From assembly GCA_027491155.1 (NCBI GenBank), contig JAIXWR010000012.1, forward strand, positions 62,001 through 126,000: 64,000 bases of DNA, written 5' to 3'. The notes under the pieces were generated by a model. The model did not search any database. It was not told the origin of the DNA and saw nothing but the letters and a program-made list of their open reading frames with translations. The stretch is from Verrucomicrobiaceae bacterium (lineage in GTDB: Bacteria > Verrucomicrobiota > Verrucomicrobiia > Verrucomicrobiales > Akkermansiaceae). The translations under genes and the position numbers were made by a program. Below are positions 4,828-39,553 of the stretch, one piece after another; within the stretch, counting starts at the first letter, position 1; the number at the start of each line of letters is the position of its first letter.

Positions 4828-4843
4828 GAGAAAGATCAGCCGT

Positions 4844-5892: not shown

Positions 5893-6771
5893 ATGTTCGG
5901 CCCCATGATGAAGATTCCACTGCTGCTGCTCGCTCCCCTGCTCCTCGCTTCCTGCGGCAGCGGCGGCTTCGGCGGGACCAGCGTTGCCGGTTCCCCGGCG
6001 GTGCTGAATGTCTCCGGCTGGGACCCGAAGGAGCGCCAGCGCGGCGGCGAGAGCTACTCCGAACACAACGTCTCCGCCCTGAAACGCAACGGCGCGCTCG
6101 GCCTGATCGCCCGCTCGGCCAAGGGGCCGCAGCTCGACGGGAAATTCGGCGACTTCCTCCATTCCACCGACCGCCAGGGCATGCTGCTGGGGGCTTACCA
6201 TTTCGTCACCATGGACCAGGATCCCGCCGCGCAGGCCGATGCCTTCGTCGACCGGGTCCGCGCCACCGCCCGCAGCCGCGGGATCTCGTCGCGCAAGATC
6301 CTGCTGGTCGGCGATTTCGACACCGCCTCCACCCCGGACCGGCTGGTGAAATTCATCCAGCGGGTCGAGCAGCGGACCGGGGTGACTCCGGTGACCTATC
6401 TGGAGAACAGCGCCAAGCTGCGCGCCAACCTCAGCGCGGCCAGCCCGGCGCAGAAGTCGGTGATCCGGCGCTCGCCCTACTGGATCGCCCTCTACAGCCC
6501 GGCCGGCACCGAGCGCTCGATGGGCCACGGCCACCTCACGCCCGACGGGCTGATGAAGCAGTATGGCATCTGGAACGATTGGGCGATGTGGCAATACGGC
6601 GGCGTGATCTGGGAAGGCGGACGCTCGAACGCCAGGCACTACAACACCGGGTCGTGGAAAAGCCCGCGCTACTTCGGCAACATGGCGCATCCGATGGAGC
6701 GAAATGTTTTCAAAGGCGATGTCGGCGACCTTCAAGCCTTCTGGGACCGCCACGGCTGGGCGTGGTGGTGA
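5893..6771 (+). CDS. GH25-like lysozyme-fold lipoprotein with altered active site
   Basis: The 292-residue product carries a lipoprotein signal with lipobox LLAS-Cys21. The mature part follows the glycosyl hydrolase 25 pattern: VLNVSGWDP (strand 1), LGAYHFVTMDQDPAAQADAFVDRV, LLVGDFDTAS, and WAMWQYGG near the end. GH25 lysozymes cleave the beta-1,4 bond of peptidoglycan using Asp in strand 1 and a DxE motif. Here the strand-1 Asp is Asn39 and DxE reads Asp141-Phe-Asp143, so activity may be lost or altered. The start at 5893 is preferred because a GGGG stretch lies 8 bases upstream; ATGs at 5905 and 5908 would leave the lipobox intact too. Confidence 0.8.
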   Translation: MFGPMMKIPLLLLAPLLLASCGSGGFGGTSVAGSPAVLNVSGWDPKERQRGGESYSEHNVSALKRNGALGLIARSAKGPQLDGKFGDFLHSTDRQGMLLGAYHFVTMDQDPAAQADAFVDRVRATARSRGISSRKILLVGDFDTASTPDRLVKFIQRVEQRTGVTPVTYLENSAKLRANLSAASPAQKSVIRRSPYWIALYSPAGTERSMGHGHLTPDGLMKQYGIWNDWAMWQYGGVIWEGGRSNARHYNTGSWKSPRYFGNMAHPMERNVFKGDVGDLQAFWDRHGWAWW

Positions 6772-6870
6772 GCAAGGAGCGGCGGATTGCCTCCGGCTAT
6801 CTCCGCTGCGCTGCGGTTCCGATCCGCCTGCCACGCTCCCACCGGCGGTCATAGACGCGCCGCTACATGT

Positions 6871-8454: not shown

Positions 8455-8747
8455 GGGAGGAAGAGAACCCAGAAACCCGAGGCCAGAAACCTCAAAAACG
8501 CGGAGCTTGCATCTCCAGAAACTCACGGCCGGCACGGGGGTAAACCCAAGAAACCCCGTGCCGGCCGCGTTTCAGAACGGTCGCTACAAGCAGAAGGTAA
8601 AACCCAAGAAACCCAAAGCTCGCCACGACCTATGTGGGTATCAATACAGCCGCGGGCGTGCCAAGTTTCAGGGCAAGTTTCGAAAAAATCGTCACTTCGA
8701 GCCGGCCCGGCGGCCGGACATGAATGCCGTGCATCCTTCCGCCGCGT
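8455..8747. repeat. Repeat-rich leader between antiporter and GNAT-nitrilase genes
   Basis: On the minus strand the last 40 bases before the GTG at 8454 read as pyrimidine-rich heptads (TTGAGGT, TTCTGGC, CTCGGGT, TTCTGGG, TTCTCTT, CCTCCC). Further upstream lies a strong hairpin, GGCCGGCACGGGG at 8527-8539 paired with its complement at 8554-8566, and a second heptad-like stretch around 8598-8618 (AACCCAAG/AAACCCAAAG). No Shine-Dalgarno sequence precedes the GTG. I see no gene in this interval. Confidence 0.6.
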
Positions 8748-10487: not shown

Positions 10488-10567
10488 CGTGGTCGCACGG
10501 AGCATTCCCGATGCACGACCGGGAGGGAAGTTCTTCGCGAAAGAAGTTCGGCGGCAGGCGTGCTTCC

Positions 10568-10723
10568 GGAGTGTCGCCTTGCAGGCGACATGAGGGTGGA
10601 CGGGCGGCATTCATGCCGCCCGGAGCCTTTCCGCCCCCAATCCGCGCCCTTCCAAAGTCGACACGAAAACGGGCGGCTGGATGCCGCCCGTCCGTCGTCA
10701 TGTCGCTTGCAAAGCGACACTCC
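10568..10723. repeat. Two inverted GGAG-head REP elements between kef-like gene and clpC
   Basis: The left arm (10568-10622) reads GGAG, a TGTCGCC/GGCGACA hairpin, a spacer, and a GGGCGGC/GCCGCCC hairpin. The right arm (10670-10723) is the same on the opposite strand with about 85% identity by eye: GGAG, TGTCGCTT/AAGCGACA, then CGGGCGGC/GCCGCCCG. The 47-base centre is unique. Stem substitutions are compensated between arms. The pair follows the clpC stop codon by 3 bases, so it may also end clpC transcription. Confidence 0.8.
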
Positions 10724-10725
10724 GC

Positions 10726-13251
10726 TCAAACCCCCGCCCCGTCCGGCTCGGCCTTGGCTCCGGTCGGGTGGAATTCGAGGGCTTCCTTGCCTTCCGGGCA
10801 GACAACCTTGGCGGTATCGCCGGGCTTCACGTCGCCGCGGAGCAGCGCTTCGGCCAGCGGGTCTTCGAGGTAGCGCTCGACCGCACGGCGCATCGGCCGC
10901 GCGCCGTAGGCGGGGTCGAAGCCCTTCTTCACCAGCAGGTCGCGGGCGCTGGTTTCGAGTTGGAGCGTGATCTCTTTCTCGCGCAGGCGCTTGAGCAGCT
11001 TGTCGATCTCGAGGTCCACGATCCGGTCGAGGTCCTTCTTCTCCAGCATGTGGAAGACCACCAGGTCGTCGAGGCGGTTGAGGAACTCCGGTTTGAAGAA
11101 GCGCTTCGATTCCTCGAGGATCTTGTCCTTCATGCCCTCGAAGTCGGACTCGTCCTGCGACATCGCCCCGAAACCGAGCGAGGTCTGGCGCTTGATGGTC
11201 GAGGCGCCGACGTTGGAGGTCAGGATGATGATCGTGTTGCGGAAGTCGATCTTGCGGCCCAGCGAATCGGTGACCATGCCCTCTTCCAGGATCTGCAGGA
11301 GCAGGTTCATCACGTCCGGATGGGCCTTCTCGATCTCGTCGAACAGCACCACGGAATACGGCCGGCGGCGGACCGCTTCGGAAAGCTGGCCGCCTTCCTC
11401 GTAGCCGACGTAGCCCGGAGGCGATCCGATCAGGCGGCTGGAGGTGAACTTCTCCATGTACTCCGACATGTCGATCTGGATCAGGGCCTCGGCGTCGCCG
11501 AACATGAACTCGGCGAGGTTGCGGGCGAGGTAGGTTTTGCCCACCCCGGTCGGCCCGAGGAAGAGGAACGAACCGATCGGCCGGCGCGGGTCCTTGAGGT
11601 CGGCACGCGAGCGGCGCAGGGCCTTGGAGATCGCCTTGACGGCTTCATCCTGGCCGATGACGCGGCCTTCGAGCTCGCTCTCCATCTTGAGCAGCTTCTC
11701 GGCCTCCTTCTCCTCCATGCGGCGGAGCGGGACGCCGGTCCACTTGGAGACGACGGCCATGATGTCCTCGTCGCCGACCTCGACCACGGTCTCCTCGGAA
11801 CGGGCGCGCCAGTTCTTGAGCGTCTCGTCGAGCGACTTCTTGATCTGCTTCTCCTTGTCGCGGAGGGAGGCGGCCTTCTCGAAATCCTGCTCGCCGATCG
11901 CACCGATCTTCTCGCGGTTCACCTCCTCGATGTCCGCTTCGAGCTGCTTGATCTCCGGCGGGCGGGTCATCGTGCCGATGCGGGCGCGGGCGCCGGCTTC
12001 GTCGAGCACGTCGATCGCCTTGTCGGGAAGATAACGGCCGGTGAGGTAGCGGGAGGTCAGCTTGACCGAAGCCTCGACCGCCTCGGGCGTGAACTTCGCC
12101 TTGTGGTGGGACTCGTACTTCTCCTGCAAGCCGCGCATGATCTTGATCGCGTCCTCGACCGAGGGTTCCTCGACCTTGACCTGCTGGAAGCGGCGCTCGA
12201 GCGCGGCGTCCTTCTCGATGTACTTGCGGTACTCGTTGAGGGTCGTCGCCCCGACCACCTGCAGCTCGGCGCGGGAAAGCGCGGGCTTGATGATGTTGGA
12301 CGCGTCCATCGCGCCTTCGGCCGAGCCGGCGCCGACGATGGTGTGGAGCTCGTCGATGAACAGGATGACGTTCTTCACCTTGCGGATCTCGTCCATCACC
12401 GCCTTGATGCGTTCCTCGAACTGGCCGCGGTATTTCGTCCCGGCGACCATCAGCGCGAGGTCGAGGGTGATCACCTTCTTGTCGCGGAGGATTTCCGGCA
12501 CGTTGCCCGAAGCGATCTCCTGGGCCAGGCCTTCCACGATGGCGGTCTTGCCGACACCGGCTTCGCCGATCAGCACCGGGTTGTTCTTGGTGCGGCGGCA
12601 GAGGATCTGGATCACGCGCTCGATCTCCGACTCGCGGCCGATGACCGGGTCGAGGTCGTTCTCGCGGGCCAGCTTCGTCAGGTCGCGGCCGAAGGCGCGC
12701 AGGGCCGGCGTCTTGGTCTTGCCTTCGGCTTCCGGCTCCTCGTTCTCGTTGCCTTCGTCCTCGAAGCCTTCCTCGTCGTCGTCCGCATCGTCGTCGTCAT
12801 CGTCGTCCGGGGTGAAATTCGGATCGATCTCGGCGAGGATCTCGTTGCGGGTGCGCTGGATGTCGACATCCATCCGGCGCAGCACGCGGGCGGCGACGCC
12901 CTCGCCCTCGCGCAGCAGGCCGAGCAGGATGTGCTCGGTGCCGACGTAGCTATGGTTGAGCGCCTTGGCCTCCTTGTTGGCGAGGGCCAGCACCTTCTTC
13001 ACGCGGGGCGTGTAGGGGATGCTGCCGGAAATCTTCTGGCCGGTGCCGGAGCCGACTTCCTTTTCGACCTCCATGCGGACGCTTTCCAGGTCGAGACCCA
13101 TCCGCTCCAGCACGTTGACCGCCACGCCCTGGCCCAGCTTGATCAGGCCGAGCAGCAGGTGCTCGGTGCCCACGTAGCTGTGGTTGAAGCGGTCGGCCTC
13201 CTTCCGGGCGAGGGCAAGCACCTGTTGGGCTCTGGGTGTGAAGTTGTTCAT
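10726..13251 (-). CDS. clpC: AAA+ unfoldase ClpC
   Basis: An 841-residue Hsp100 unfoldase that recognises substrates and feeds them to ClpP. It has two Clp-N repeats (residues 5-140, each with NHSYVGTEH), nucleotide-binding domain 1 with Walker A GEAGVGKT at 229-236, a middle UVR-type coiled coil ([21 protein letters not shown]), and nucleotide-binding domain 2 with GPTGVGKT and [11 protein letters not shown]. The LGF tripeptide in [10 protein letters not shown] fits the ClpP-docking loop. Unusual is a very acidic linker at 149-177 (a run of Asp followed by Glu/Asn) between the N-domain and domain 1. The start codon overlaps the mcsB stop by 4 bases, so it is translationally coupled in mcsA-mcsB-clpC. 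Confidence 0.97.
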
Positions 13252-14369
13252 AGGATCTCGGGGTTTTGATCGGGTGAATCGTTCTTTTTCCTTGTTGAAC
13301 CCATATCAGGGGCTTGGAGGCTTTGCAACCGGCCGCGGACGATTTCGGCGCGGATCGAATCGCGCTCCTCCGGCGAGAGCTTCCGGCCGCTGTGTAGCTG
13401 GAGGTGTGCCGGTTGGATGTCCATCAGCAGGGCATCGCAAGATTTCACGGTGTCCGCCGGCAGGAAGCCGAGGTCGCCGCCCAAGCGGAGCAGGGAAAGA
13501 TGGTTGAGCGCCTCCTTGGAATCGATGATCCAGGCGTGCTTCAGCACCCCGTAGGCGCGGCCGATCTTGTCGGCGACCATCGCCGGATCGTCCTCCAGCA
13601 GCTTGTCGCGGGCATTCCGCTCGTGGGTGGCGACCTGGGAAATCACGCGCTCCAGCCGGCGCAGGATGGTCTCCTCGCTTTCACCGAGGGTCGACTGGTT
13701 GGAAATCTGGAACAGGTTGCCGAGCGACTCGGTGCCCTCCCCGTAGAGCCCGCGGACCGCGAGGCCGATCTTGTTGACCGCCTGAAGCACCTGGCCGATC
13801 TGGTCGCCGAGCACCAGCGCCGGCAGATGGAGCATCGCCGAAGCGCGGAGACCGGTGCCGAGGTTGGTCGGGCAGGTCGTGAGGTAGCCGAGCTCGTGGT
13901 CGAAGGCGAGGTCGAGCGACTTTTCCAACTCCTCGTCCACCGTGGCCAGCGCGTCGAAGGCGGAGCGCAGCGCGAGTCCCGGGCGGATCGACTGCATCCG
14001 GAGGTGGTCCTCCTCGTTCAACATCAGGGCGATCGACTGCCGGCGCTCGATCACCGCCGCGCTGCCCTCGCCGCGGGCGGCGTGCTCGCGGCTGATCAGG
14101 TGGCGCTCGACCAGCACCTGCTTCTGCACGGAGCTCAGGTCGTCGAGTTCCTGGGAAAACGCGTCCTTCATGCAGGGCAGCGCCTCGACCGCCGGCCGCA
14201 TCACTTCCAGCGCGTGACGGCGCTCTTCCTTCTTCGCCCAGCCGGGGAAGGACTCGCCCCGCAGGTTGCGGGCGAGCCGGATCCGCGAGGTCAGCACGAT
14301 GGCGTTGTCGGCCCCCTCGCCGGTCATCCAGTCGGCGGGGTTTTTGACGAGAGTGGTGAAGCGCATCAT
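13248..14369 (-). CDS. mcsB: Protein-arginine kinase McsB
   Basis: A 373-residue guanidino-phosphotransferase that phosphorylates arginines on damaged proteins, marking them for ClpC-ClpP. VLTSRIRLARNLRG (26-38) binds nucleotide, LMLNEEDHLRMQ is the substrate loop, and LTTCPTNLGTGLRAS carries the catalytic Cys and phosphate-binding Arg region. Length matches Bacillus McsB (about 360) plus a short charged tail. ATGATG at the start leaves two possibilities; AAGGA about 11 bases upstream of the first ATG supports 14369. It overlaps clpC by 4 bases and follows mcsA by 6, so all three form one operon. No ctsR repressor gene is present next to it. Confidence 0.96.
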   Translation of the reverse strand: MMRFTTLVKNPADWMTGEGADNAIVLTSRIRLARNLRGESFPGWAKKEERRHALEVMRPAVEALPCMKDAFSQELDDLSSVQKQVLVERHLISREHAARGEGSAAVIERRQSIALMLNEEDHLRMQSIRPGLALRSAFDALATVDEELEKSLDLAFDHELGYLTTCPTNLGTGLRASAMLHLPALVLGDQIGQVLQAVNKIGLAVRGLYGEGTESLGNLFQISNQSTLGESEETILRRLERVISQVATHERNARDKLLEDDPAMVADKIGRAYGVLKHAWIIDSKEALNHLSLLRLGGDLGFLPADTVKSCDALLMDIQPAHLQLHSGRKLSPEERDSIRAEIVRGRLQSLQAPDMGSTRKKNDSPDQNPEIL

Positions 14370-14375
14370 GACAGG

Positions 14376-14885
14376 TCAGTCCTTCGTCGGGGTGGCGCGG
14401 AGTTCGATGCGGCGGATTTCATCGCGCAGGCCGGCGGCTTCCTCGTAGTTCTCGGAGTTCACCGCCAGGTCCAGCTTGCCGCGGAGTTCCTCGAGCCGCT
14501 GCGTGCGGGCGTGGAGTTCCATCAATCCGGCCGGCACCTTGCCGCAGTGGCGGGTGCCCTTGTGCATGCCGCGCAGCATCTGGCCGACCTCGTCGTGGAA
14601 GGTCGTGTAGCATTCCGCGCAGCCGAAGCGGCGGATCCGGCGGAGGTCGTCGAGCGTGAATCCGCAGCCCGCGCAGCGGCGGCCGGCACCGGTCTGGAAG
14701 GGAGCCGGCACGGAGACCTTGCCGGCGGATTTCCCCAGCAGCATTTCCGCCAGCGCGAAGCCGGTCGGGTCGGTCACGCCCTTCTCCTTGGCGCAGTCGT
14801 CGCAAAGGGCGATTTTCTTGATTTGCCCGCCCACCAACTGGGTGAGGTGCACCTTTGCTTTCTTGCCGCAGATGTCGCAGTCCAT
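14376..14885 (-). CDS. mcsA: McsA, zinc-binding activator of McsB
   Basis: The 169-residue protein has an N-terminal zinc finger (CDICGKKAKVHLTQ...CDDCAKEKG), a second one (CAGCGFTLDDLRRIRRFGCAECYTTF) and a C-terminal UVR motif (LRGKLDLAVNSENYEEAAGLRDEIRRIE). In Firmicutes McsA activates the McsB kinase and adapts it to ClpC; the same role is inferred here from the conserved order mcsA-mcsB-clpC. Length is close to the usual 180. It is probably the first gene of the operon, 67 bases downstream of the aminotransferase gene on the same strand. Confidence 0.95.
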   Translation of the reverse strand: MDCDICGKKAKVHLTQLVGGQIKKIALCDDCAKEKGVTDPTGFALAEMLLGKSAGKVSVPAPFQTGAGRRCAGCGFTLDDLRRIRRFGCAECYTTFHDEVGQMLRGMHKGTRHCGKVPAGLMELHARTQRLEELRGKLDLAVNSENYEEAAGLRDEIRRIELRATPTKD

Positions 14886-14952
14886 TGACGAACCAAGCTA
14901 AGAGCGCCCGGCCGGAATGCGAAAGGAAATCTCCCGGCCGGAGCGTGTTTTC

Positions 14953-15822
14953 TCAATCGATCGGCGTGCCGGTGGTCGAAGCCAGCTCCTTGAAGGCGGC
15001 GATGAAGCGCCGGGTCAACGGTCCCGGCGTGCCGTCGCCGATGACGCGGCGGTCGAGCGAGACCACCGGAATCACCTCCGCCGCCGTGCCGGTGAGGAAA
15101 AACTCGTCGGCGATGAAGAGGTCGTAGCGGGTGAGCGAGCGCTCCACCTTCGGGATCCCGAGCTGGTCGGCCAGCTCGAGGATGACGCGGCGGGTGATCC
15201 CGTCCAGGGCGCCGTCGTTGACCTGCGGCGTGTGGAGCACGCCGTCGCGCAGGATGAAGACGTTGTCGCCGGTGCACTCGGCCACGTAGCCCTGCTCGTT
15301 GAGCATCACGGCTTCCAGCGCGCCGGCCTGGATCGCCTCGACCTTGGCCATGACGTTGTTCAGGTAGTTCAGCGACTTCACCTGCGGCATCAGCGCGGCC
15401 GGTGCCGGGCGGCGGGTCGCGCAGGTGATCACCGACAGGCCCTTCTCGTAATGCTCCTCCGGGTAGAGGCTGATCGTGGAAGCGATGATGAACATGCTGG
15501 CCCGCTTGCAAAGGTAGGGGCTAAGCCCCAGCGATCCCGTGCCGCGGGTGACCACCAGCCGGATGTAGCCGTCGTCCAGACCGTTGGCGGCCACGGTTTC
15601 CACCACGAACTTGCAGACCTCTTCCTGCGTCCAGGGGATCTCCAGCACGATCGCGCGGGCGGAGTCGAAGAGCCGGCGGATGTGCTCCTCCAGGCGGAAG
15701 ACCCGCCGGTTGTAGAAGCGGATGCCTTCGAACACGCCGTCGCCGTAAAGCACGCCGTGATCGAACACGGAGATTTTCGCCGCGGATTCCTCCACCAATT
15801 CGCCGTCGAGCCAGATTTTCAT
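14953..15822 (-). CDS. ilvE: Branched-chain amino acid aminotransferase (class IV)
   Basis: A 289-residue fold-type IV PLP enzyme that makes leucine, isoleucine and valine from their 2-oxo acids. Signatures are FDHGVLYGDGVFEGIRFYN (19-38), GYIRLVVTRGTGSLGLSP, QVKSLNYLNNVMAK with the PLP Lys149, EAVMLNEQGYVAECTGDNVFIL and the C-terminal DEFFLTGTAAEVIPVVSLDRR. EGIR and the VKSLNYLNN form fit short BCATs of the archaeal/thermophile type. A D-amino-acid or aminodeoxychorismate lyase role cannot be fully excluded but is less likely. The gene is transcribed in the same direction as mcsA-mcsB-clpC, 67 bases upstream. Confidence 0.9.
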   Translation of the reverse strand: MKIWLDGELVEESAAKISVFDHGVLYGDGVFEGIRFYNRRVFRLEEHIRRLFDSARAIVLEIPWTQEEVCKFVVETVAANGLDDGYIRLVVTRGTGSLGLSPYLCKRASMFIIASTISLYPEEHYEKGLSVITCATRRPAPAALMPQVKSLNYLNNVMAKVEAIQAGALEAVMLNEQGYVAECTGDNVFILRDGVLHTPQVNDGALDGITRRVILELADQLGIPKVERSLTRYDLFIADEFFLTGTAAEVIPVVSLDRRVIGDGTPGPLTRRFIAAFKELASTTGTPID

Positions 15823-15895
15823 CGCAAAAGTCGGGGTAGCCTAGAGCCCGCGGGCAAGCTGGCAAGCCCCTCGTTCGGCGAATCCAAGCCCCCGT

Positions 15896-16480
15896 TCAGG
15901 GCGTCCCTTCGGCGTCCGGCTCTTCGCCCGCGGCCGGCTTCACATCGGTGAGCGATTCCCAATCCACCGCGCCGTGGTCGATGCGCTGCAGCTCGCTGGC
16001 ATAGACCGCGTCGTCGTTCTTCGGATCCATCTCGGCCGCCAGCTCGGTGAAAATCCGGGCCATCAGCGAATTCTCCACACCGCCCTGCTGCTTCAGCAAC
16101 TGGCCGCGGGTGTAGAGCAGGCTGGCGAGCACGCCGGGACGGTAGTCGTCCTCCGCCGCTTCGGGCAGCACCCCGCGGGAAAGTTGGAAACTCAGGACCA
16201 GCGCCTTCCGGTTGCGCGGCGAAAGGTGGAGCGCCAGCGCGACCAGCCGGCGCGCTTCCGCCAGCGATGCCACGCTCGCCTTCGCCGCCGCCACCCGGTT
16301 CGCGGCGTAGCCCGCCAGGTTGTCGGCATACTCCTCGCGCTCGCGGTCCAGCATGCCGAGGGCTTCGGTAAACAGTCCCGCCCCGGTCTTCGGCGGATTC
16401 CACTCGAACTTCGCCGCCTCATCCGCCGCAAACACGGGGAGGCACAGGCTGAGGACGATGGCTTGCCAGCGGCGGATCAC
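15896..16480 (-). CDS. Secreted TPR-like protein of unknown function
   Basis: The 194-residue precursor starts at a GTG (VIRRWQAIVLSLCLPVFA, signal peptide). The mature part is helical, with LAEARRLVALALHLSPRNRKALVLSFQLSRG and VENSLMARIFTELAAEMDPKNDDAVYASELQR resembling tetratricopeptide helices, so it may be a periplasmic scaffold. It ends in an acidic Glu/Pro tail. The frame stays open far upstream through the cyclo-ligase and apaG genes, but composition and the signal peptide set the start. It is divergent from the cyclo-ligase gene with only about 36 bases between starts. No specific function is assigned. Confidence 0.7.
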   Translation of the reverse strand: MIRRWQAIVLSLCLPVFAADEAAKFEWNPPKTGAGLFTEALGMLDREREEYADNLAGYAANRVAAAKASVASLAEARRLVALALHLSPRNRKALVLSFQLSRGVLPEAAEDDYRPGVLASLLYTRGQLLKQQGGVENSLMARIFTELAAEMDPKNDDAVYASELQRIDHGAVDWESLTDVKPAAGEEPDAEGTP

Positions 16481-16516
16481 GGCGGCTAGGTTCCCGTCCC
16501 CGCCCGGCCATTGCAA

Positions 16517-17077
16517 GTGACAAGTCCCCGCGATCCGAAAGCCGATCTCCGCCGCGACCTCCGCCGGTCGAGGCCGGACATGGATTCCCAGCTCGCCCAG
16601 TCCGCGGACATCCGCCGCCACCTGCGCGAATGGCTGGCAGCCCGGCCCGCGCGAACCATCGCCGCCTTCGCCTCCCTGCCCGGCGAACCGATGCTGCTGG
16701 AATTGCTCGCCGACTTTCCCGACCGCCGCTGGGTCCTGCCGCGGGTCGATGGCGACACGATGCAATTCCATCTCGCCGATCCCGCCCGCCTTGCCGCCGG
16801 CAGCTTCGGGATCCTCGAGCCCCCGGTGGATTCGCCCGTCTGCCCGACCGGAGAAATCGACCTCTTCCTCTGCCCCGGCATGGCCTTCACGACCTCCGGC
16901 ATCCGCCTCGGCCGCGGCAAGGGCTACTACGACCGGGCGCTGGAGGCCGCGAATGCCGGATCGACCAAGGTCGGCGTTTGTTTCCGCGGGCAAATCCTGC
17001 CCGCTCTCCCTTCCGATCCGCACGACATCCCGGTGCGATTCCTCGCGACGCCGGACGGGATCCTCGACTGCGCCTAA
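16517..17077 (+). CDS. 5-formyltetrahydrofolate cyclo-ligase
   Basis: A 186-residue member of the family that converts 5-formyl-THF to 5,10-methenyl-THF with ATP, recycling the storage folate. The conserved SPRDPKADLRRDLRR start, ASLPGEPMLLELL, GILEPP, IDLFLCPGMAFTTSGIRLGRGKGYYDRAL (the LGxGxGYYDR active-site loop) and VRFLATPDGILDC are all visible. Length matches the family. Start choice is uncertain: GTG at 16517 or TTG at 16511, neither with a strong ribosome binding site. Its stop overlaps the stop of apaG on the other strand by 4 bases. Confidence 0.92.
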   Translation: MTSPRDPKADLRRDLRRSRPDMDSQLAQSADIRRHLREWLAARPARTIAAFASLPGEPMLLELLADFPDRRWVLPRVDGDTMQFHLADPARLAAGSFGILEPPVDSPVCPTGEIDLFLCPGMAFTTSGIRLGRGKGYYDRALEAANAGSTKVGVCFRGQILPALPSDPHDIPVRFLATPDGILDCA

Positions 17078-17460
17078 GCCCAGCCCGGCACCGTCAGCTT
17101 GAACTCCGGGATCGGCGCGAAGACCCAGTCGCCGCCGCCGGTTTCCCCGAAAAACGCGCCCTCCGCCACGGCATCCCCGCGGGTCACGTGGTAGCTGTTG
17201 TAGGAAAAACTCTCGCCCGGCGCGATCACCGGCGTCTGGCCCACCACGCCGTCGCCTTCCACCACCGTCACCTCTCCGTCGCCTTCCCGCACGATCCATT
17301 TCCGGCCGCGGATCGTCACCTTCTCCGGCGAGTCGTTCTTGATCGAAATGAAGTACACGAAGGGATGCGGACGCTCGTCGGGAGCATCCAGGCTGGGCAT
17401 GTAGATCACGTCGTCCACCCGGACGCTCAGCCCGTCGAGTTTCCGCAACATCGGCGTCAT
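17074..17460 (-). CDS. apaG: ApaG-domain protein
   Basis: The 128-residue product is a complete ApaG (DUF525) domain, a fibronectin-like beta sandwich. VYFISIKNDSPEKVTIRGRKWIVREGDGEVTVVEGDGVVGQTPVIAPGESFSYNSYHV and the closing FAPIPEFKLTVPGW are the family core. ApaG is linked to cobalt resistance and Ap4A metabolism in enterobacteria, but its biochemical role is not settled. The ATG at 17460 is taken because upstream sequence in frame has no ApaG similarity. It converges on the cyclo-ligase gene with a 4-base overlap. Confidence 0.93.
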   Translation of the reverse strand: MTPMLRKLDGLSVRVDDVIYMPSLDAPDERPHPFVYFISIKNDSPEKVTIRGRKWIVREGDGEVTVVEGDGVVGQTPVIAPGESFSYNSYHVTRGDAVAEGAFFGETGGGDWVFAPIPEFKLTVPGWA

Positions 17461-17528
17461 GTCCCGCGACTCTGGCCCCGCCCTCCGCCCGATGCCAAGT
17501 GCCGAGAGGAGAAATTTCCCGCCGGCCC

Positions 17529-18971
17529 TCACGGCACCGCGCCAAGCCCCGGGCCGTTCAATTGCGCCGTCGCCAGCTTGCCGTTCCGGGTGTCGAACAG
17601 CCCCGGAAAACGGCCCGTCCACGCGGCATTCGCCGCCGGCACATACTGGCGGGCGTTCGACTCGATGGTGGAAAGCCCCGGCACGTGCGAGGCGATCCCC
17701 GCCGAGTGGACCAGCGACGCCCCCGGACAGGTCAGGTCCTGCACGCACAGGAACATCCCGTATTTCTTCCCCGCCGCCGCCATCAGCAAGGCGTGCGACT
17801 GGCCCTTGCAGGCCTTGAGGCAGGCCCCGGTGTAGCCCATGTCGCGCGCCAGCAGCAGGTTCTCCAGGTCGGTCAGCGACTCGTCGATCACCACCGGCCG
17901 CAATTTCGCCGCGGCGTGCATCTTGTTCTCCAGATTCGCCTTCAGGTCGCGCCGCGTCGGCTGCTCCAGGTAGAGGATGCTCTCGAAGCCCTTCGGCGAC
18001 CGCTCCTTCACCTTCGCCAGATACTCCAGCACGTAATCCACGTCGGCGCAGGCCTCGTTGAAATCGCTGCAGTATTTCCAGTCCACGTCCGGCGACGTCT
18101 CACGCGCCACCCGGTCGATCGCCACGGTCCGCTCGATGTCCCATTCGAGGTTCTCGCCCTGGAGCTTGATCTTGATCCGCTGCAAGCCGTCGCGCCGGAT
18201 CCACTCGCCCAGCGTTTCCGGCAGGCCGTCGCCCGTCCGCTCCTTGAGCTCGGACTCCGCCACCGCGTCCAGCCCGCCCACCGAATGGAACAGCCAGACC
18301 CAGTCGCGCGGCTCCGCATCCAGATAGCCCTGCAGCGACTCGCCCTTGAAGTCGTTGTTCAAGTAGCGCGACAGGTCGTGGCCGATCAATTCCGGCGTGT
18401 TGGTGCGGAAACAGTTCGCGCCGAGCGATTTCCCGAAGGCGTCGTGCAGCGCCGCGTCGAAGGCGCTGGCGGTGACCTGGGTGCACAGCTTCGGGATCGG
18501 CGTCGCCAGCTTCAGCGCCACCGAAAGCTCGGCGGCCGCCTTGAGATACTCCGGCTCGAGCTGGTGGTTCATCTCGATCGGATGCGCCGTCTCGGTGAAG
18601 CCGCGGGTGATCGCCGCAATCTTTCCCGCCAGTTCCTTCATCGCCCGCAAGGTCTCGTCGTAAGGAATCACCTTGGACGGGAACGACCACACGTTGCCCA
18701 GCGGCATCGACCCGAAGCCCTTGCTCACCTTGCCGGAGGGCGACACCACCTCCACCGTCACGTTCAGCAGCGTCACCCGGTCCACCGCCGTGCCGCCGAA
18801 CTTGTAGGGCATGCGGTATTTGAACTCCTCGAACGCGAAATCGAGGCTGCCGATGCGGACCCCCGCCGGCTTGCGGACGATCACCCCCGGCACCTCGCCC
18901 GCGGCGATCCCGCCGGAAAGCAGGGCGGAGCTTTTCAAAAACGCGCGGCGGGAAAGGGCGGGACTCGTCAT
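17529..18971 (-). CDS. Tat-exported enolase-superfamily (MR/MLE) protein
   Basis: The 480-residue precursor begins [25 protein letters not shown], a twin-arginine signal, so it is probably exported folded to the periplasm. The rest follows the mandelate racemase/muconate lactonizing pattern: [10 protein letters not shown] (KxK), [10 protein letters not shown] (metal Asp), LYLEQPT (metal Glu), VVIDESLTD (metal Asp/Glu) and [16 protein letters not shown] (lysine on strand 6). These proteins use Mg2+ to stabilise an enolate; the substrate is probably a sugar acid or dipeptide but cannot be read here. Export of this superfamily by Tat is unusual outside Planctomycetes and Verrucomicrobia. The upstream gap to tyrS is 93 bases. 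Confidence 0.88.
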
Positions 18972-19064
18972 GGTCGTGACGGGTGCACTAGCATCCGCCG
19001 GCCCCGGCGTCAGCTTCTCTCTTCTGCCTTGCCTCTTTCCCCCGTCCGGCTTCCGCTTCCCGCC

Positions 19065-20258
19065 GTGACCCCGGAAGAACAACTCCAGATCCTCACCGCC
19101 GGCACCGCCAAGGTGCTGTCGGAAAAGGAACTCCTCGAAAAACTCCGCGACTCGGCCAAGACCGCCCGGCCTCTGCGGATCAAGCTCGGCGTCGATCCCA
19201 CCGCGCCCGACATCCACCTCGGTCACACCGTCGCGCTGGAGAAACTCCGCCAGTTCCAGCTCCTCGGCCACCAGGCGGTGCTGCTGATCGGCGATTTCAC
19301 CGCGACCATCGGCGATCCCTCCGGCCGCTCCGTCACCCGCCCGCCGCTGACCCGCGACGAGGTCCTCCACAACGCCTCCACCTACACCGAGCAGGCCTTC
19401 AAGATCCTCGACCGCGAAAAGACCGAGATCGTCTACAACGGCGACTGGTTCCGCAAGATGAGCTACGAGGACATCCTCCGCCTCAACGCCCGCGTCACCC
19501 TCCAGCAGATGCTCCAGCGCGAGGACTTCCGCACCCGCATCGAGGCCGGCCAGGAAATCCGCCTCCACGAACTCCAGTACCCCGTCATGCAGGGCTGGGA
19601 CTCCGTCGAAATCCGCGCCGACGTCGAGATCGGCGGCACCGACCAGCTCTTCAACATCCTCGTCGGCCGCGACCTCCAGAAGGAGGAAGGCCAGCCGCAG
19701 CAGGTCGTCATGGTGGTCCCGCTGCTCGAAGGCCTCGACGGCGTGAAGAAGATGTCCAAGTCCTACGGCAACTACGTCGGCGTCAGCGACGCCCCGCAGG
19801 ACATGTTCGGCAAGCTGATGAGCGTCTCCGACACCCTGATGGCGCGCTACTACCAGCTCCTGCTGGGCGAGTCGCTCGACCCCGCCGCGCACCCGATGGA
19901 CGCCAAGAAGTCGCTCGCGGAAAAGATCACCGCCCGCTACCACGGCCCGGAAGCCGGCACCGCCGCGCGTGCCGACTGGGACACCCGCTTCTCCAAGAAG
20001 GACCTCGCCGCCGCCGACCTGCCCGAACTGCCGGTCTCCGGCCTCCCTGCCGAACTCAACGTCCTGACCCTCACCGCCCACGGCTTCACCGCCGCCTTCG
20101 GCCTTGAGAAATCCAACGGCGAATTGCGCAAGCAGTTCATCGTCCCCGGCTCCGTCCAACTCAACGGCGAAAAGCTCACCGACGCCAACGCCCCCGTCAC
20201 CGTCGCCGCCGGCGATGTCCTCAAGCTCTCCAAAAAGCACGCCGTCCGTTTCGTCTGA
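19065..20258 (+). CDS. tyrS: Tyrosyl-tRNA synthetase
   Basis: A 397-residue class I synthetase charging tRNA-Tyr. The HIGH signature is HLGHT at 51-55 after [14 protein letters not shown] is present in [14 protein letters not shown], and the C-terminal S4-like RNA-binding domain (about 330-397; [22 protein letters not shown]) is intact. The form with TAPDIHLGH and [15 protein letters not shown] is the TyrZ-like second type. The start is a GTG at 19065; no Shine-Dalgarno sequence precedes it, and the leader is strongly pyrimidine-rich in roughly 7-base steps. The stop is followed by the heptamer repeat region before the glutaredoxin gene. Confidence 0.96.
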
Positions 20259-20264: not shown

Positions 20265-20445
<181 letters not shown>

Positions 20446-24893: not shown

Positions 24894-25697
24894 ATGAAAT
24901 ACATCGAGCCCCACGCCCACATGGTCAGCCGCACGACGGACGACTATGAAAAGCTCGCCCTCGCCGGTTGCGCCGCGCTTTGCGAACCCGCCTTCTGGGC
25001 CGGCTTCGACCGCTCCTCGCCGGCCGGCTTTTACGACTACTACCGCCAGCTCACCGAATACGAACCGAAGCGCGCCGCGAGATATGGCATCCCGCATTTC
25101 TGCTGGCTGTGCATCAACCCGAAGGAGGCCGAGGACGCCGGCTTCGCCCGCGAGGTCATGGCGATCATCCCCGAATTCCTCGACAAGCCGACCGTGCTCG
25201 GCATCGGCGAGATCGGCCTGAACAAGAACACGAGAAGCGAGCTCGCGATCTTCGAGGAACACGTGCAGATGGCGCTCGACCGCGACCTGCCGATCCTCAT
25301 CCACACCCCGCACTTGGAAGACAAGCTCAAGGGCACCCGCCTGATCCTCGATTCGCTGGCGAACTTCTCCAAGCTCGACCGCGGCAAGGTGATCATCGAC
25401 CACGTCGAGGAACATACGGTGAATCTCGTCCAAGAGCAGGGCTACTGGGCCGGCATGACACTTTACCCGGAAAGCAAGTGCACCCCGAACCGGGCGATCG
25501 ACATGCTGGAGACCTGTGACGCCAGCCGCCTTTGGTTGAATTCCGCCTGCGACTGGGGCGTTTCCGATCCCCTCGCCGTCGTGAAATGCGGCTTCGAGAT
25601 GAAGCGCCGCAAACACACGGCGGCGGAGATCGACACGATCCTCTACGAAAACCCGAAGCGCTTCCTCAGCCAGTCGAAGAACTTCGTGCTTCCGTGA
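24894..25697 (+). CDS. eboB: TatD-family metal-dependent hydrolase, EboB-like
   Basis: The 267-residue protein starts MKYIEPHAHMVSRTTDDYEKLALAGCAALCEPAFWAGF, which matches the EboB branch of TatD hydrolases closely. Metal ligands are the HAH pair (His7, His9), the Glu of GEIGLN, His of LIHTPH, His of IIDHVEEHT and Asp of ACDWGVSDP. EboB proteins belong to the eboABCDEF cluster linked to biofilm-edge phenotypes and export of prenylated or scytonemin-type compounds. No other ebo gene is in the window, so this is an isolated member. The ATG at 24894 fits the family. Its last 50 bases, including the stop, are repeated 550 bp downstream after the HicBA genes. Confidence 0.85.
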   Translation: MKYIEPHAHMVSRTTDDYEKLALAGCAALCEPAFWAGFDRSSPAGFYDYYRQLTEYEPKRAARYGIPHFCWLCINPKEAEDAGFAREVMAIIPEFLDKPTVLGIGEIGLNKNTRSELAIFEEHVQMALDRDLPILIHTPHLEDKLKGTRLILDSLANFSKLDRGKVIIDHVEEHTVNLVQEQGYWAGMTLYPESKCTPNRAIDMLETCDASRLWLNSACDWGVSDPLAVVKCGFEMKRRKHTAAEIDTILYENPKRFLSQSKNFVLP

Positions 25698-25701
25698 GGC
25701 G
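25650..25701. repeat. Direct repeat, copy 1 (3' end of eboB-like gene)
   Basis: This 52-base stretch encodes the C-terminal ENPKRFLSQSKNFVLP and the stop codon. It recurs at 26200-26251, exactly 550 bases downstream, with one difference (T at 25691, G at 26241). The two copies enclose the HicBA genes. Confidence 0.93.
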
Positions 25702-25747
25702 TGTCACGAAGGATTGCCGATCCGGCCGCAGAATGTAGATTTCGCGC

Positions 25748-25948
25748 ATGAAGCTGAACGCGATCATCCACGAGGCCGAGGAAGGCGGTTATTGGGCGGA
25801 AGTCCCCGCCCTTCCCGGCTGCGTCACCCAGGGCGAAACTCTCGAGGAGCTTGAACAGAACCTCCACGAGGCGATCGAGGCCTGGTTGCTTGCCGCCGAT
25901 CCCGCAGACCCCGGACCCAGTGGTCGGTTGCTGGAAGTGGCCGTATGA
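25748..25948 (+). CDS. hicB: HicB antitoxin, short form
   Basis: The 66-residue product is a HicB/UPF0150 domain: MKLNAIIHEAEEGGYWAEVPALPGCVTQGETLEELEQNLHEAIEAWL. This partially degraded RNase H-like fold blocks HicA. It ends shortly after the domain, so the C-terminal DNA-binding helix-turn-helix or ribbon-helix-helix found in many HicBs is missing; regulation must be by another means. It is encoded before the toxin and overlaps hicA by 4 bases, which favours coupled, antitoxin-first synthesis. The module lies between 52-base direct repeats. Confidence 0.92.
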   Translation: MKLNAIIHEAEEGGYWAEVPALPGCVTQGETLEELEQNLHEAIEAWLLAADPADPGPSGRLLEVAV

Positions 25949-26151
25949 AAGCGGTCAGCGGCAAACGCCTGGCAAAGCTCGCGGAGCAAAAGGGTTGGAA
26001 ACTCGCCCGGGTCAACGGCAGCCATCACGTCTATACCAAAGACGACCGGATTGAACGGGTCGTGATCCCGATTCATGGCAACACTACACTGAAGATCGGC
26101 CTTCAGCGTGCTTTGATGAAGATCATTCCGGTTGCGGAAGACGAACTCTGA
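25945..26151 (+). CDS. hicA: HicA toxin, mRNA interferase
   Basis: The 68-residue protein is a double-stranded RNA-binding-like HicA toxin that cleaves mRNA and slows translation when free of HicB. KLAEQKGWKLARVNGSHHVYTKDDRIERVVIPIHGNTTLKIGLQRALMK contains the GSHH motif with the catalytic His (His27 by alignment to the family, followed by His28) and the conserved HxN loop. Length matches HicA. It shares a 4-base overlap with hicB. All key residues are present, so the toxin should be functional. Confidence 0.93.
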   Translation: MKAVSGKRLAKLAEQKGWKLARVNGSHHVYTKDDRIERVVIPIHGNTTLKIGLQRALMKIIPVAEDEL

Positions 26152-26199
26152 CCGTTCCGGCATCAACCATGCCCCGTCGGAAAGGGAAGCGCGCCGGGG

Positions 26200-26251
26200 A
26201 ACCCGAAGCGCTTCCTCAGCCAGTCGAAGAACTTCGTGCTGCCGTGAGGCG
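26200..26251. repeat. Direct repeat, copy 2 (duplicated 3' end of eboB)
   Basis: This is the second copy of the eboB 3' end, with stop codon, 51 of 52 bases identical to 25650-25701. It lies 49 bases past the hicA stop and 133 bases before the next gene. Here it is not joined to an open eboB gene, so it is a remnant rather than a coding end. Confidence 0.93.
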
Positions 26252-26384
26252 GGGCACCTTCCGCGGGTGGAAATCGGCCGCGAATTCCCAATCGCGGAAT
26301 TCGGGACAAGGGTTATCGGGAACACGCGCCGGGCAACGGATCGCCCGCGCAACTCCCAACCAACCTCCATCCCAAGCAACCAAG

Positions 26385-26945
26385 ATGAAAATGAAACTCC
26401 TCGGAGCCCTCCTGTTCGCAAGCTTCGCCTTCGCGGGGGCGAATGCGGAAACCAAGGCGACCATCACCAAGGCTGAAGTCAACGCCGCGCAGCAGGCCTG
26501 GTGCGACGCGCTGGTTGCCATCGGAAAGGCCCACACCGACGGCGGCGACGCCAAGGCCCTCGCTTCGAAGGTCCTCGACGAGGCCTACAACTACGCCGAA
26601 GCCCCGGTGTTCTTCAAGCCGACCCTCGCCTACGGCAAGAACACCTTCCGCCCGACCAAGGAAGGCGCTCTCGCCTACTTCGTCGGCGGCGATCCGAAGT
26701 TCCCGGAAGACAAGGGCTTCGCCCTGAAGCCCTGGGTCAAGGCGCGCTACGACAACCTCGGCGACGGCGATGAAGGCATTCAGATCCACGGCAACATCGC
26801 CATCACGATGGGCAACGTCTGGGTGACCGACAAGGACGGCAACGAAACGATGGTCGACAAGACCTTCGTCTTCAAGAAGGGCGACGACGGCAAGCTGAAG
26901 CTGATCGTCCACAAGTCCGCCCTGCCCTACAGCCCGGCCAAGTAA
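26385..26945 (+). CDS. Secreted small protein, SnoaL/NTF2-like by shape
   Basis: The 186-residue precursor has a signal peptide (MKMKLLGALLFASFAFAGANA). The mature part starts with a helix (TITKAEVNAAQQAWCDALVAIGKAHTDGGDAKALASKVLDEAYNYAEAPVFFKPTLA) followed by strands (FVGGDPKFPEDKGFALKPWVKARYDNLGDGDEGIQIHGNIAITMGNVWVTDKDGNETMVDKTFVFKKGDDGKLKLIVHKSALPY), the order seen in NTF2-like scaffolds. Homologues in Verrucomicrobia are sometimes labelled phosphoribosyl-AMP cyclohydrolase, but I see no HisI motif. It is monocistronic with its own terminator. A binding or enzymatic role is not assigned. Confidence 0.75.
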   Translation: MKMKLLGALLFASFAFAGANAETKATITKAEVNAAQQAWCDALVAIGKAHTDGGDAKALASKVLDEAYNYAEAPVFFKPTLAYGKNTFRPTKEGALAYFVGGDPKFPEDKGFALKPWVKARYDNLGDGDEGIQIHGNIAITMGNVWVTDKDGNETMVDKTFVFKKGDDGKLKLIVHKSALPYSPAK

Positions 26946-27021: not shown

Positions 27022-28350
27022 TCAACCGGTGGAGGATTCGCCGATCTCGACCTTCGGCAGCGGCATGGCCAGCACCTTGTCGACCCGGCTGCCGTCCATG
27101 TCCATGATCTCGAAGCGCCAGCCCGATTCCTCGATCTGGTCGCCTTCCGCCGGCACCCGTTCGAGCACGTGGGAGAACCAGCCGGCCAGCGTTTGGAACT
27201 CGTCGCCCGCGCCCTCCGGCCGGATGAAGCCGGGCAGCACGTCGTCCACCTTCTCGATTTCGAACAGGCCGTCGATCAGCCAGCTGCCGTCCTTGCGCTG
27301 CTTCACCGGCATCGTCAGCCGTTCTTCCTTCGAGGGCACGTCTCCGACGATCGCCTCCATCAGGTCGATCAGCGTGACCATCCCGGTGACCCCGCCGAAC
27401 TCGTCGACCACGAAGGCCACGTGATGGCCGGTGCGGCGGAACTCCTCCAACAGGGCGTTCGCCTTCTGCAACTCCGGAACCAGCAGCGGCGGTTGCATGA
27501 TGTTCTGGAACCGGATCTCCACCCCGGCCGCGAGCTGGGCGTAGCAGTCCTTCACCGAAATCACGCCGACCAGGTTGTCGCGCTGGCCCTGATAGACCGG
27601 ATAGAATCCGTGGGAACTCTTCACGATGCGCGGCCAGGCGGAGGCGTGCGACTCGTCGCGCTCGATCCACACCATCTTCGGGCGCGGAATCATGATGTCG
27701 TAAACCAACAGCTTGTCGAAGCCGAGGACCCCTTCCATCATGCGGGACTCGGCGCGCTCGATGCCACCGGCGACCATGCCCTCGCGGATCAGCACGGTGA
27801 ACTCGTCGCGCGAAAGCTTCTCCTCGCCGCTGTCCCTCACCCCGCAGAGGCGCAGCAGCGCCGAGGTCGACCAGGCAAGCAGCGAGACGAAGGGAGTGGC
27901 GATCGCCGACAGCCACGACATCGGCCCCGACATCGCGCTGGCGATGCCTTCCGGGAACTGCATCGCCAGCCTCTTCGGCGCGAGCTCGCCGATGACCAGC
28001 GAGCCGTAGGTCAGCGAACCGATCACCACCACGAAGGCGATGCTGCCGGCGAAAGGCCCGACCACCGGCAGCGGGGCCAGCACCGCGGCCAGCTTGGCGG
28101 AGAGGCTGGCACCACCGAAGGCACCGGCGAAGATGCCGACCAAGGTGATGCCGATCTGGACGGTCGACAGGAAGCGGTTCGGCGAGTCGGCCAGCTTCAG
28201 CGCCCGGGCCGCGCCCTTGCTACCGGCATCGGCGCGGGACTGAAGGACGGCGCGGCGGGAGGAGACGATCGCGATCTCGGTCATCGCGAACAGGCCGTTG
28301 CACAGCAGCAGGAAGAAGATGAGAGCGATTTCGAACAGCGTGGAAGCCAT
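27022..28350 (-). CDS. CNNM-type (hemolysin/CorC) membrane protein with CBS pair
   Basis: The 442-residue protein has a DUF21/CNNM transmembrane domain (about 1-190; LFEIALIFFLLLCNGLFAMTEIAIVSSRRAVLQSRADAGSKGAARALKL, GSLTYGSLVIGELAPKRLA), a CBS domain pair (about 205-330; DIMIPRPKMVWIERDES, GFYPVYQGQRDNLVGVISVKD) and a CorC_HlyC C-terminal domain (about 345-430; WLIDGLFEIEKVDDVLPGF). Such proteins move or sense Mg2+/Co2+ and related cations; the name hemolysin is historical. Length fits the family. It lies downstream of the ammonium transporter gene on the same strand with a 63-base gap. Confidence 0.92.
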   Translation of the reverse strand: MASTLFEIALIFFLLLCNGLFAMTEIAIVSSRRAVLQSRADAGSKGAARALKLADSPNRFLSTVQIGITLVGIFAGAFGGASLSAKLAAVLAPLPVVGPFAGSIAFVVVIGSLTYGSLVIGELAPKRLAMQFPEGIASAMSGPMSWLSAIATPFVSLLAWSTSALLRLCGVRDSGEEKLSRDEFTVLIREGMVAGGIERAESRMMEGVLGFDKLLVYDIMIPRPKMVWIERDESHASAWPRIVKSSHGFYPVYQGQRDNLVGVISVKDCYAQLAAGVEIRFQNIMQPPLLVPELQKANALLEEFRRTGHHVAFVVDEFGGVTGMVTLIDLMEAIVGDVPSKEERLTMPVKQRKDGSWLIDGLFEIEKVDDVLPGFIRPEGAGDEFQTLAGWFSHVLERVPAEGDQIEESGWRFEIMDMDGSRVDKVLAMPLPKVEIGESSTG

Positions 28351-29766: not shown

Positions 29767-30693
29767 ATGCGGCTCGCCTTTTTCCCGCCGTCCCGGCAAC
29801 CTGACGCCGTGGACGCGGAGGCCGATGGATTCATGCTGTTCCTGGCGACCGAGCGCGGGCTGTCGGCCGCCTACCAGCTGTCGGTCCGCCAGACGCTCGA
29901 CGCCCTCGCCGCCCACCTGCGGCGGAAAGGCCTGCCGCTCGCCGACGTCGGCACCGACGAGCTGTCGGACTTCCTGATGGAGCGCAAAAAGAGCGGACTG
30001 GCCGCCTCCTCGCTGCGCATCGCCACCGTCCACCTCAAGGTCTTCTTCCGCTGGCTGGCCTCCCGCGGCAAGCTGCCGATGGACCCCGCGGAGCCCCTCC
30101 TTTCCCCTCGCCCGGAGCAAACGCTGCCGGAAACCCTGCACGGCTCGGAGGTGAAGCGGTTGCTGGATTCGATCGACCCCGCCCAGCCGCTCGGCCGCCG
30201 CGACCTCGCAATGCTGGAGTTGTTCTACGCCTCCGGCCTGCGGCTGTCGGAGCTGTGCTCGGTCCGGCTGGAAGGACTGGACCTCGACGAAGGCTTCATC
30301 CGGGTGACCGGCAAGGGCAACAAAACCCGCATCGTCCCGGTCGGCGGCCGCGCGCGGGAGGCGGTGACGGACTACCTTCGAAACGAACGCCCCACCCTCG
30401 TCACCCGTCGAACCTCCTCCGAAATCTTCCTCAGCATCCGCGGCACCAGGCTTTCGCCGGACCGCGTCCGCCAGATCGTCAAGGAGCGCGCCGCCCTCGC
30501 GGGGATCGAGCAGAACGTCTATCCGCACCTGCTGCGCCATTCGTTCGCGACCCACTTGTTAGAAGGCGGGGCGGACCTGCGGGTGATCCAGGAACTCCTC
30601 GGCCACGCCGACATCGCGACCACCCAGATCTACACCCACGTCGACGGCGCGCGCTTGAAAGCGATTCACAAGAAGTTCCACCCGCGGGGGTGA
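29767..30693 (+). CDS. xerD: XerD-like tyrosine recombinase
   Basis: The 308-residue protein has the N-terminal SAM-like core-binding domain (residues about 18-105) and a C-terminal catalytic domain with the full set of residues: Arg159 ([10 protein letters not shown]), Lys183 (TGKGNKTR), His254 and Arg257 ([12 protein letters not shown]), His280 ([11 protein letters not shown]) and Tyr289 (IYTHV). XerC/D-type enzymes resolve chromosome dimers at dif. Length is right for XerD. No dif-like site or second recombinase is seen here, so the paralogue (XerC or XerD) is not proven. It is divergent from amtB with 63 bases between starts. Confidence 0.93.
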
Positions 30694-39028: not shown

Positions 39029-39553
39029 TCAGGCGAGGGTGCCTTCCTTCTTCTCTTCCTCGTCGTGCTCCTTGTCCTTCTTGCACTTGCCGCAATGAGC
39101 GAGGGCGGGATCTTCCTTCTTGTCCTTGTCGCACTCGCCATCCTTGCACTTGCCGGCGAGGGTGCCTTCCTTCTTCTCCTCCTCGTCGTGCTCCTTGTCC
39201 TTCTTGCACTTGCCGCAATGGGCGAGGGCCGGATCTTCCTTCTTGTCCTTGTCGCACTCGCCGTCCTTGCACTTGCCGGCAAGAGCGGGGTCTTCCTTCT
39301 TATCCTTGTCGCACTCGCCATCCTTGCACTTGCCGGCCAGGGCGGGATCTTCCTTCTTGTCCTTGTCGCACTCGCCGTCCTTGCACTTGCCGGCCAGGGC
39401 GGGGTCTTCATCCTTGTCGCACTCGCCGTCCTTGCACTTGCCGACGAGGGTCGTTTCTTCCTTCTTATCCTTGTCGCAATCCTTGCACTTGCCGGCGAAA
39501 GCAAGCGGGGTGCAGAGAAGGGCGGCAATGAACGAGCTGATTACCAGTTTCAT
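39029..39553 (-). CDS. Secreted Cys-rich lysine/acidic repeat protein
   Basis: The 174-residue precursor has a signal peptide (MKLVISSFIAALLCTPLAFA) and a mature part built from two kinds of repeat. GKCKDGECDKDKKEDPALA appears about five times (one shorter, one GKCKDCDKDKKEETTLV form), and HCGKCKKDKEHDEEEKKEGTLA twice. There are 16 Cys in CxxxxC or CxxC pairs and many Lys, Asp and Glu. Two adjacent 123-bp (41-residue) blocks at 39033-39155 and 39156-39278 are near identical, mostly synonymous. A metal-binding or thiol-buffering role is likely by composition. It resembles the EGKCG-repeat style of HvfA-type copper peptides, but no HvfB/HvfC partner lies nearby. The start is at 39553. Confidence 0.75.
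   Translation of the reverse strand: MKLVISSFIAALLCTPLAFAGKCKDCDKDKKEETTLVGKCKDGECDKDEDPALAGKCKDGECDKDKKEDPALAGKCKDGECDKDKKEDPALAGKCKDGECDKDKKEDPALAHCGKCKKDKEHDEEEKKEGTLAGKCKDGECDKDKKEDPALAHCGKCKKDKEHDEEEKKEGTLA

Follow-up and report, generated by a model that had tools for sequence, protein, structure and literature searches.

It has long been asked how small chromosomal toxin-antitoxin pairs move when no mobile element can be seen, and the locus described here brings this question to one junction: in a 64-kb window (the whole stretch of DNA that was analysed, from the genome called G000 below), a predicted hicBA pair stands between two copies of the 3' end of the gene upstream of it. This arrangement is confirmed. 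The two copies form a direct repeat with 55 of 58 positions identical and a spacing of 550, and across the narrower stretch 25650-25701 the identity is 51/52, which agrees with the original prediction of a gene-end repeat recurring after hicA at exactly 550 bases with one mismatch. The duplicated part had been counted as 16 codons and the stop; it actually consists of the final 15 sense codons plus stop (48 nt), with ~10 nt past the stop. The upstream gene does keep an intact end and the second copy is an orphan, as had been stated, but the name eboB given to that gene is not confirmed, its protein matching the TatD model and none of the EboB models run; its TIGR00010 match falls under the cut-off, and we call the gene TatD-like. 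The identity of the HicBA pair is borne out by Pfam matches for both members, which overlap by 4 nt, and on domain content, a HicA domain with an adjacent HicB-type partner, the pair would count as a HicBA type II toxin-antitoxin module. The features are collected in Table 1.

Table 1. Features of the junction and of the window, and the HicA survey loci bracketed by direct repeats
Feature	Position	Strand	Basis or remark
TatD-like hydrolase gene, intact, 3' end is the target	24894..25697	+	PF01026 (TatD_DNase) 3e-8
Copy 1 of the target duplication: end of TatD-like gene and ~10 nt	25650..25707	+	55/58 to copy 2
492-nt insert: leader, hicB, hicA, spacer	25708..26199	+	between the copies; hicB and hicA unmatched at the G010 site
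hicB, predicted antitoxin, short form, 66 aa	25748..25948	+	UPF0150 (PF21748) 7.7e-12; HicB_lk_antitox (PF15919) 3.5e-8
hicA, predicted toxin, 68 aa	25945..26151	+	HicA_toxin (PF07927) 7.8e-15
Spacer between hicA and copy 2, 48 nt	26152..26199	+	identity to G006 at chance level
Copy 2, orphan 3' end of TatD-like gene	26200..26257	+	55/58 to copy 1; 48/52 to G006 copy 2
Carbonic-anhydrase-like gene, right of the insert	26385..26945	+	NF047901 2.3e-57, score under the model cut-off
CNNM/CBS-like gene	27022..28350	-	named by eye; convergent neighbour of TatD-like gene in several genus members
XerC/XerD-like tyrosine recombinase	29767-30693		3.5 kb from copy 2; stretch also in G010 and G004
Simple TCAACTC repeat	20333-20443		
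Tandem array	39032-39503		
L271: GMP synthase, 3' end duplicated			by eye; GMP synthase C-terminal domain
L246: alpha/beta hydrolase, 3' end duplicated			by eye
L234: P-type ATPase, 31 nt, ends just short of stop			by eye
L265: amidase-like protein, last 23 nt including stop			by eye
L288: solute-binding protein, 3' part			by eye
L251: sulfatase, 5' end			by eye
L292, L294: toxin-antitoxin arrays			by eye
L252: attC-like			by eye
L233, L237, L255, L274, L277, L284: intergenic or palindromic repeats			by eye
L245: paralogue pair			by eye
L249, L256, L303: class unclear			by eye

A direct-repeat scan of the whole window (spacings 60-20,000, the best match kept per spacing) gave 11 rows scoring at least 30, 10 of them outside the hicBA repeat; seven of these come from the tandem array at 39.0-39.5 kb and three from the simple repeat at 20.3 kb, and the repeat flanking hicBA is the only long non-tandem direct repeat that the scan found. 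The insert holds hicB and hicA only, with no recombinase or integrase gene inside it, in line with the earlier statement that no integrase is present, and none of the 25 inverted pairs listed spans the insert ends as long terminal inverted repeats would.

Regarding the same junction in relatives, the TatD-like gene is present in 36 of the 38 genomes searched, the genome of the window included. A close HicA (E <= 2.1e-23) was found in 3 of 18 genus genomes, our own counted, namely G000, G006 and G004, in all three of them behind the TatD-like gene; G001 and G010 give weak HicA matches only (E 5.6e-4 and 9.6e-4), on other contigs. Among 80 named TatD-like loci, from which our own genome was left out and 5 of which have less than 600 bases after the gene, hicBA follows the gene in two, those matching G004 and G006, and a second gene-end copy was seen in the G006 record only (1/80). 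Elsewhere in the genus the CNNM-like gene, which in the window lies at 27.0-28.4 kb, comes within 40 bp after the TatD-like gene (G003, G007, G009) or ~1.5 kb after it (G008, G011, G015), and in the remaining members other genes adjoin. Since the TatD-like gene has such varied neighbours across the genus, and since a close HicA is confined to three genomes, always behind this gene, and hicBA to two of the 80 loci, hicBA is taken as a newcomer at the junction, that is, as a derived insertion.

Three relatives bear directly on how it came there. In G006, a second species, hicBA lies between two copies as well, again at a spacing of 550, and because the assembly of another species has the same structure, an assembly artefact is unlikely as the source of the repeat. 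The sister genome G010 has the empty site that had been proposed as a check: a single copy and no hicBA, with no hicB or hicA match at the junction and synteny on both sides (it matches the window across 22.6-25.7, 26.36-30.7 and 36.1-42.2 kb, with gaps), the carbonic-anhydrase-like gene lying immediately 3' of the TatD-like gene. The third species, G004, carries hicBA, and copy 2 is absent there save a short left-edge stub (AAACCC). The presence of hicBA at this place without the duplication is what the original prediction had named as speaking against insertion, though the stub, together with a stretch that G006 has and G004 lacks, can be explained by secondary loss of copy 2. As hicBA is already present in G004, which of the four genomes probably branches off deepest, the single-copy site of G010 may be a secondary loss and not the ancestral state. 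A 12-genome tree of the TatD-like gene leaves 6 of its 9 inner forks open and does not fix the order of gain and loss; TyrRS, wanted for a four-genome tree, was not found in G010. In G004 the hicA gene is apparently frameshifted (C8, L004 2553-2758) with hicB intact, and the copies in G000 and G006 are intact.

One pattern in the comparison of G000 with G006 is harder to accommodate. The identity is 751/804 in the TatD-like gene, 184/201 in hicB and 173/207 in hicA; in the spacer before copy 2 it drops to 17/48 ungapped or 25/46 gapped (mean of shuffles 25.5), and in copy 2 it is back up to 48/52. With a chance-level spacer beside so similar a copy, the copies would have been homogenised by recombination, or be under constraint, or the right junction would have been re-made, and the pattern is not what would be expected from a single old insertion whose copy 2 is neutral. 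Homogenisation and re-making would each mean that the repeats recombine in nature.

The junction is a defence hotspot. In G006, ~14.8 kb with a type I restriction locus directly follows copy 2, holding genes for HsdR, HsdS, an HsdM-like frame (named by eye), a KilA-N protein, a DUF3800 protein, a PtuB/HNH-like protein, a PHP-ATPase and a YgjP-like protein, and after this island comes the carbonic-anhydrase-like gene that comes after copy 2 in the window. G004 has the same restriction locus in the same place, its left part behind hicBA and its right part, which is 95% identical to G006 over 1627 bases, on another contig beside the CNNM-like gene. A faint candidate for a third gene-end copy, at 71910 where the G006 island ends on its right side, has a local score of 33 against a mean of 19.3 and a maximum of 27 in 200 shuffles, but it is suggestive only, since gene-end matches equal to it or better occur elsewhere in the island. 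The carbonic-anhydrase-like gene of G006 (C2:72149-72715) contains two in-frame stops.

Whether such bracketing is peculiar to this locus was surveyed across the phylum. From among the matches listed in a Pfam search of 387 genomes, 80 HicA regions were taken in roughly E-value order, with matches near contig starts dropped by eye and with some genomes giving 2-3 regions; 78 of them were testable, with flanks up to 8 kb per side and the requirement that a repeat bracket hicA within 880 bases on each side. At a score of at least 20, a direct repeat brackets 19 of the 78 HicA loci, and among 581 control positions taken from those contigs it brackets 6 (Fisher p = 3e-14), an excess of ~24-fold, where the controls, being arbitrary positions plus one housekeeping family, under-represent accessory, gap-rich DNA because the positions are arbitrary. 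At the stricter score of at least 30 the counts are 12/78 and 4/581 (p = 4e-9). Under the same test, 0 of 30 cold-shock (CSD) genes and 4 of 26 ParE/RelE toxins are bracketed, from sets of 30 loci each with 1.5-kb flanks, 26 of the ParE loci being testable. An earlier look at HicA with 1.5-kb flanks had left out 6 edge loci. In the window's own order none of 20 HicA rows (18 distinct loci) reaches score 20, the maximum being 17 with 700-nt flanks; two of these loci (in G037 and G123) also occur in the phylum survey.

The original prediction had proposed a search for the same direct repeats around other HicBA pairs, and duplicated gene ends were indeed found, by eye, at 6 of the 78 loci, their sequences unrelated to one another. 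These six come from six different families of the phylum, with duplicated lengths from 23 to ~150 nt, and the remaining 13 of the 19 bracketed loci are not gene-end cases in the classification by eye (Table 1). Some of the intergenic or palindromic cases could be target duplications too; among these six loci only L233 has more than two repeat copies. A stricter automatic gene-end test gave 3/75 against 1/483 (p = 0.008), weaker than the repeat test, and it missed three of the six cases found by hand. A comparable duplication was met with another toxin: at L320 (G319) and L312 (G297), which belong to two species of a single genus, a ParE/RelE-type toxin gene is followed by a second copy of the upstream gene's final 56-59 nt.

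Several survey loci showed arrangements of other kinds. L292 (G575, 6564-8525) is a regular toxin-antitoxin array in which a RelBE-like pair (named by eye) and a HicBA-like pair are separated by a ~72-nt repeat that is present three times, with spacings of 947 and 943; at L294 (G417, 3220-5430), a ~160-nt leader-like repeat occurs three times between HicB/HicA-type modules. At L252 (G635, 3338-3943) hicBA lies between two copies, spaced 553 apart, of a 53-nt repeat with GCGTTAG at its end, which we take to resemble an integron attC site. At L155 (G266) an 18/19-nt direct repeat (score 16) encloses a match to hicA that contains two TGA codons.

Taken together, insertion with long target duplication, here with a toxin-antitoxin cargo, is the best reading of the locus, and we hold it to be probable, though well short of certain. 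By this reading hicBA would have come in as an insertion of ~0.5 kb directly behind the TatD-like gene and would have duplicated a target T of ~58 bp, turning A-T-B into A-T-hicBA-T-B; because T holds the last codons and the stop, the left copy would keep the gene intact and the right copy would be a dead orphan. The duplication may arise at the insertion itself, either through a long staggered break that is repaired or through a single crossover with a hicBA circle carrying a short piece of the target. Insertions elsewhere within genes would presumably be purged, leaving those at gene ends, which would survive since a duplication past the stop codon leaves the gene whole; the sulfatase case (L251) is a mirror image of this at a 5' end. 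Repeats of such length should allow the insert to pop out, and the clean removal of hicBA by recombination between the copies, which had been predicted, is plausible. Cells that pop the module out would then lose the antitoxin and suffer, while ordinary insertions between repeats would vanish, so that repeats would persist around toxin-antitoxin and restriction modules because the loss of these is costly.

In favour of this reading there are the single-copy relative G010, even if its state may be a secondary loss, the direct duplication of tens of bp at both ends, an insert with neither a recombinase gene nor long terminal inverted repeats, the restriction locus at the same junction in G006 and G004, and the survey's excess of repeats and duplicated gene ends around HicA, with the ParE cases beside them. 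Insertion at a gene 3' end with regeneration of the site, as first proposed, is partly supported, by the single-copy site of G010, by the duplicated gene ends around other HicBA pairs and by the same structure in G006, and is weakened by G004, which lacks copy 2, and by the possible loss in G010. On the point that the duplication was made in the insertion event itself, what was found is that G004 has no copy 2 and that the spacers of G000 and G006 do not align above chance. These two observations count against the reading as a whole, as do the 0/20 rows in the window's order, the weaker outcome of the automatic gene-end test, the arbitrary choice of control positions and the 13 of 19 bracketed loci that are not gene-end cases.

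A wider proposal can be attached to it, which we put forward tentatively, as possible rather than probable: chromosomal toxin-antitoxin modules would be minimal recombinase-free mobile units, commonly inserting with long target duplications, and addiction would preserve such insertions, of toxin-antitoxin and restriction modules alike. As the repeats would make every insertion prone to popping out, the insertions still visible would be those whose cargo harms the cell when lost, and addiction, if the proposal is true, is what preserves this insertion class. The pattern in several distant relatives hints at how such modules travel where no transposase or integrase is to be seen. The locus also links toxin-antitoxin modules with the route that has been proposed for restriction-modification genes, both kinds of cargo being stacked at the one junction. 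The footprint, the single-copy relative and the excess of repeats make the question testable, and for each case one would expect an ancestral site, a pop-out product and a cost to the cell of popping the module out.

Among the other explanations, the one that survives best reads the locus as an element, either defective or cis-mobilisable, whose targets are gene 3' ends and whose attL and attR are the two copies, with a tyrosine recombinase acting in trans and with hicBA and the restriction locus as successive accretions at one site. It is suited by a site that lies at the 3' end of a gene and restores that gene, and by the stacking of two cargoes at a single G006 site, along with the faint third copy at 71910; in addition, the survey case L271 lies at guaA, a classic integrase target. 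We nevertheless regard it as unlikely. The insert is free of integrase genes, none turned up among the scanned proteins of the G006 island, and neither a tyrosine nor a serine integrase was seen near the six gene-end cases in the 22 ORFs scanned of 41 listed (at least 140 aa), where an IS21-type transposase and its ATPase near L271 are the sole mobile-element genes. The XerC/XerD-like gene near the junction looks like a housekeeping one, in DNA shared with G010 and G004. Moreover, the duplication lengths vary and no core motif is common to the independent target ends, among which no shared stretch scores above 10, and the G006 island has other gene-end matches as good as the third copy or better. 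The absence of a common motif makes insertion with long target duplication a better fit than one site-specific element.

It is also conceivable that hicBA was already in place and that a local event made the repeat, the 58-nt gene end being copied after hicA by slippage, or the gene and hicBA being duplicated in tandem and then partly deleted. G004, with hicBA but without copy 2, would be explained in this way, and so would the differing spacers of G000 and G006. We think this distinctly unlikely, for G004 retains the stub at the left edge of the copy and lacks a stretch found in G006, no hicB-like sequence was seen by eye behind copy 2, with a single hicB match at the locus, and independent local duplications would not place gene-end copies around HicBA in six other families. 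That copy 2 is itself functional, retained, say, to give the hicBA transcript a regulatory element or a folded 3' end, is very improbable: its conservation at 48/52 beside a chance-level spacer and a stem predicted between spacer and copy 2 would suit it, but the folding does not stand out (z from -0.1 to -1.1 in four stretches) and does not support an RNA-structure reading of the repeat, the copy is absent from G004, and the copies at other loci are unrelated in sequence.

Returning to insertion with long target duplication, its relation to known systems can be set out as follows. Integrative elements, including CIMEs and IMEs, target gene 3' ends, regenerate the gene, have direct repeats at both ends and accrete in tandem, and the hicBA locus is like them in all these respects. 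It is unlike them in that the cargo is very small, no integrase was found in the insert or the neighbouring DNA scanned, and no att core is common to the loci; the likeness in logic that had been suggested thus stands for the gene 3' end and is weakened for a site-specific element. The dif modules of Acinetobacter are similar small toxin-antitoxin units bounded by repeated sites, but dif modules use 28-bp Xer sites and the hicBA locus has nothing dif-like, the best match to the E. coli dif having 12 mismatches in 28 on either strand within 25550-26400. Integron cassettes likewise can carry small toxin-antitoxin cargo between repeats of roughly similar length, with an attC core of GTTRRRY. The hicBA repeat differs in being coding sequence of a conserved gene with no attC core, neither GTTRRRY nor RYYYAAC occurring within 25601-26300, although the survey locus L252 looks attC-like by eye.

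The closest likeness is to restriction-modification systems, for which insertion with long target duplication (Nobusato et al. 2000) is described in the parts of PMC3874152, PMC3031569, PMC1643837 and PMC4978471 drawn on here, two of these descriptions concerning Helicobacter. According to PMC3874152, restriction systems of this sort can in some cases move with no link to any known mobile element. The same review describes type I systems as apparently less mobile than type II, which counts against our reading. The hicBA locus shares with them the long direct target duplication around the insert and a cargo that is an addictive module. It is unlike the described cases in its ~0.5-kb toxin-antitoxin cargo, its occurrence in Verrucomicrobia, its position at a gene 3' end, and the restriction locus stacked behind the toxin-antitoxin pair in sister species. 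Among the titles and abstract openings of open-licence papers, we found no report of toxin-antitoxin modules inserted with long target duplications. The insertion type itself is already known for restriction-modification systems, and the new points here are that the cargo is a toxin-antitoxin pair, that its footprint is a duplicated gene end which recurs in other families, and that the junction is shared with a restriction locus.
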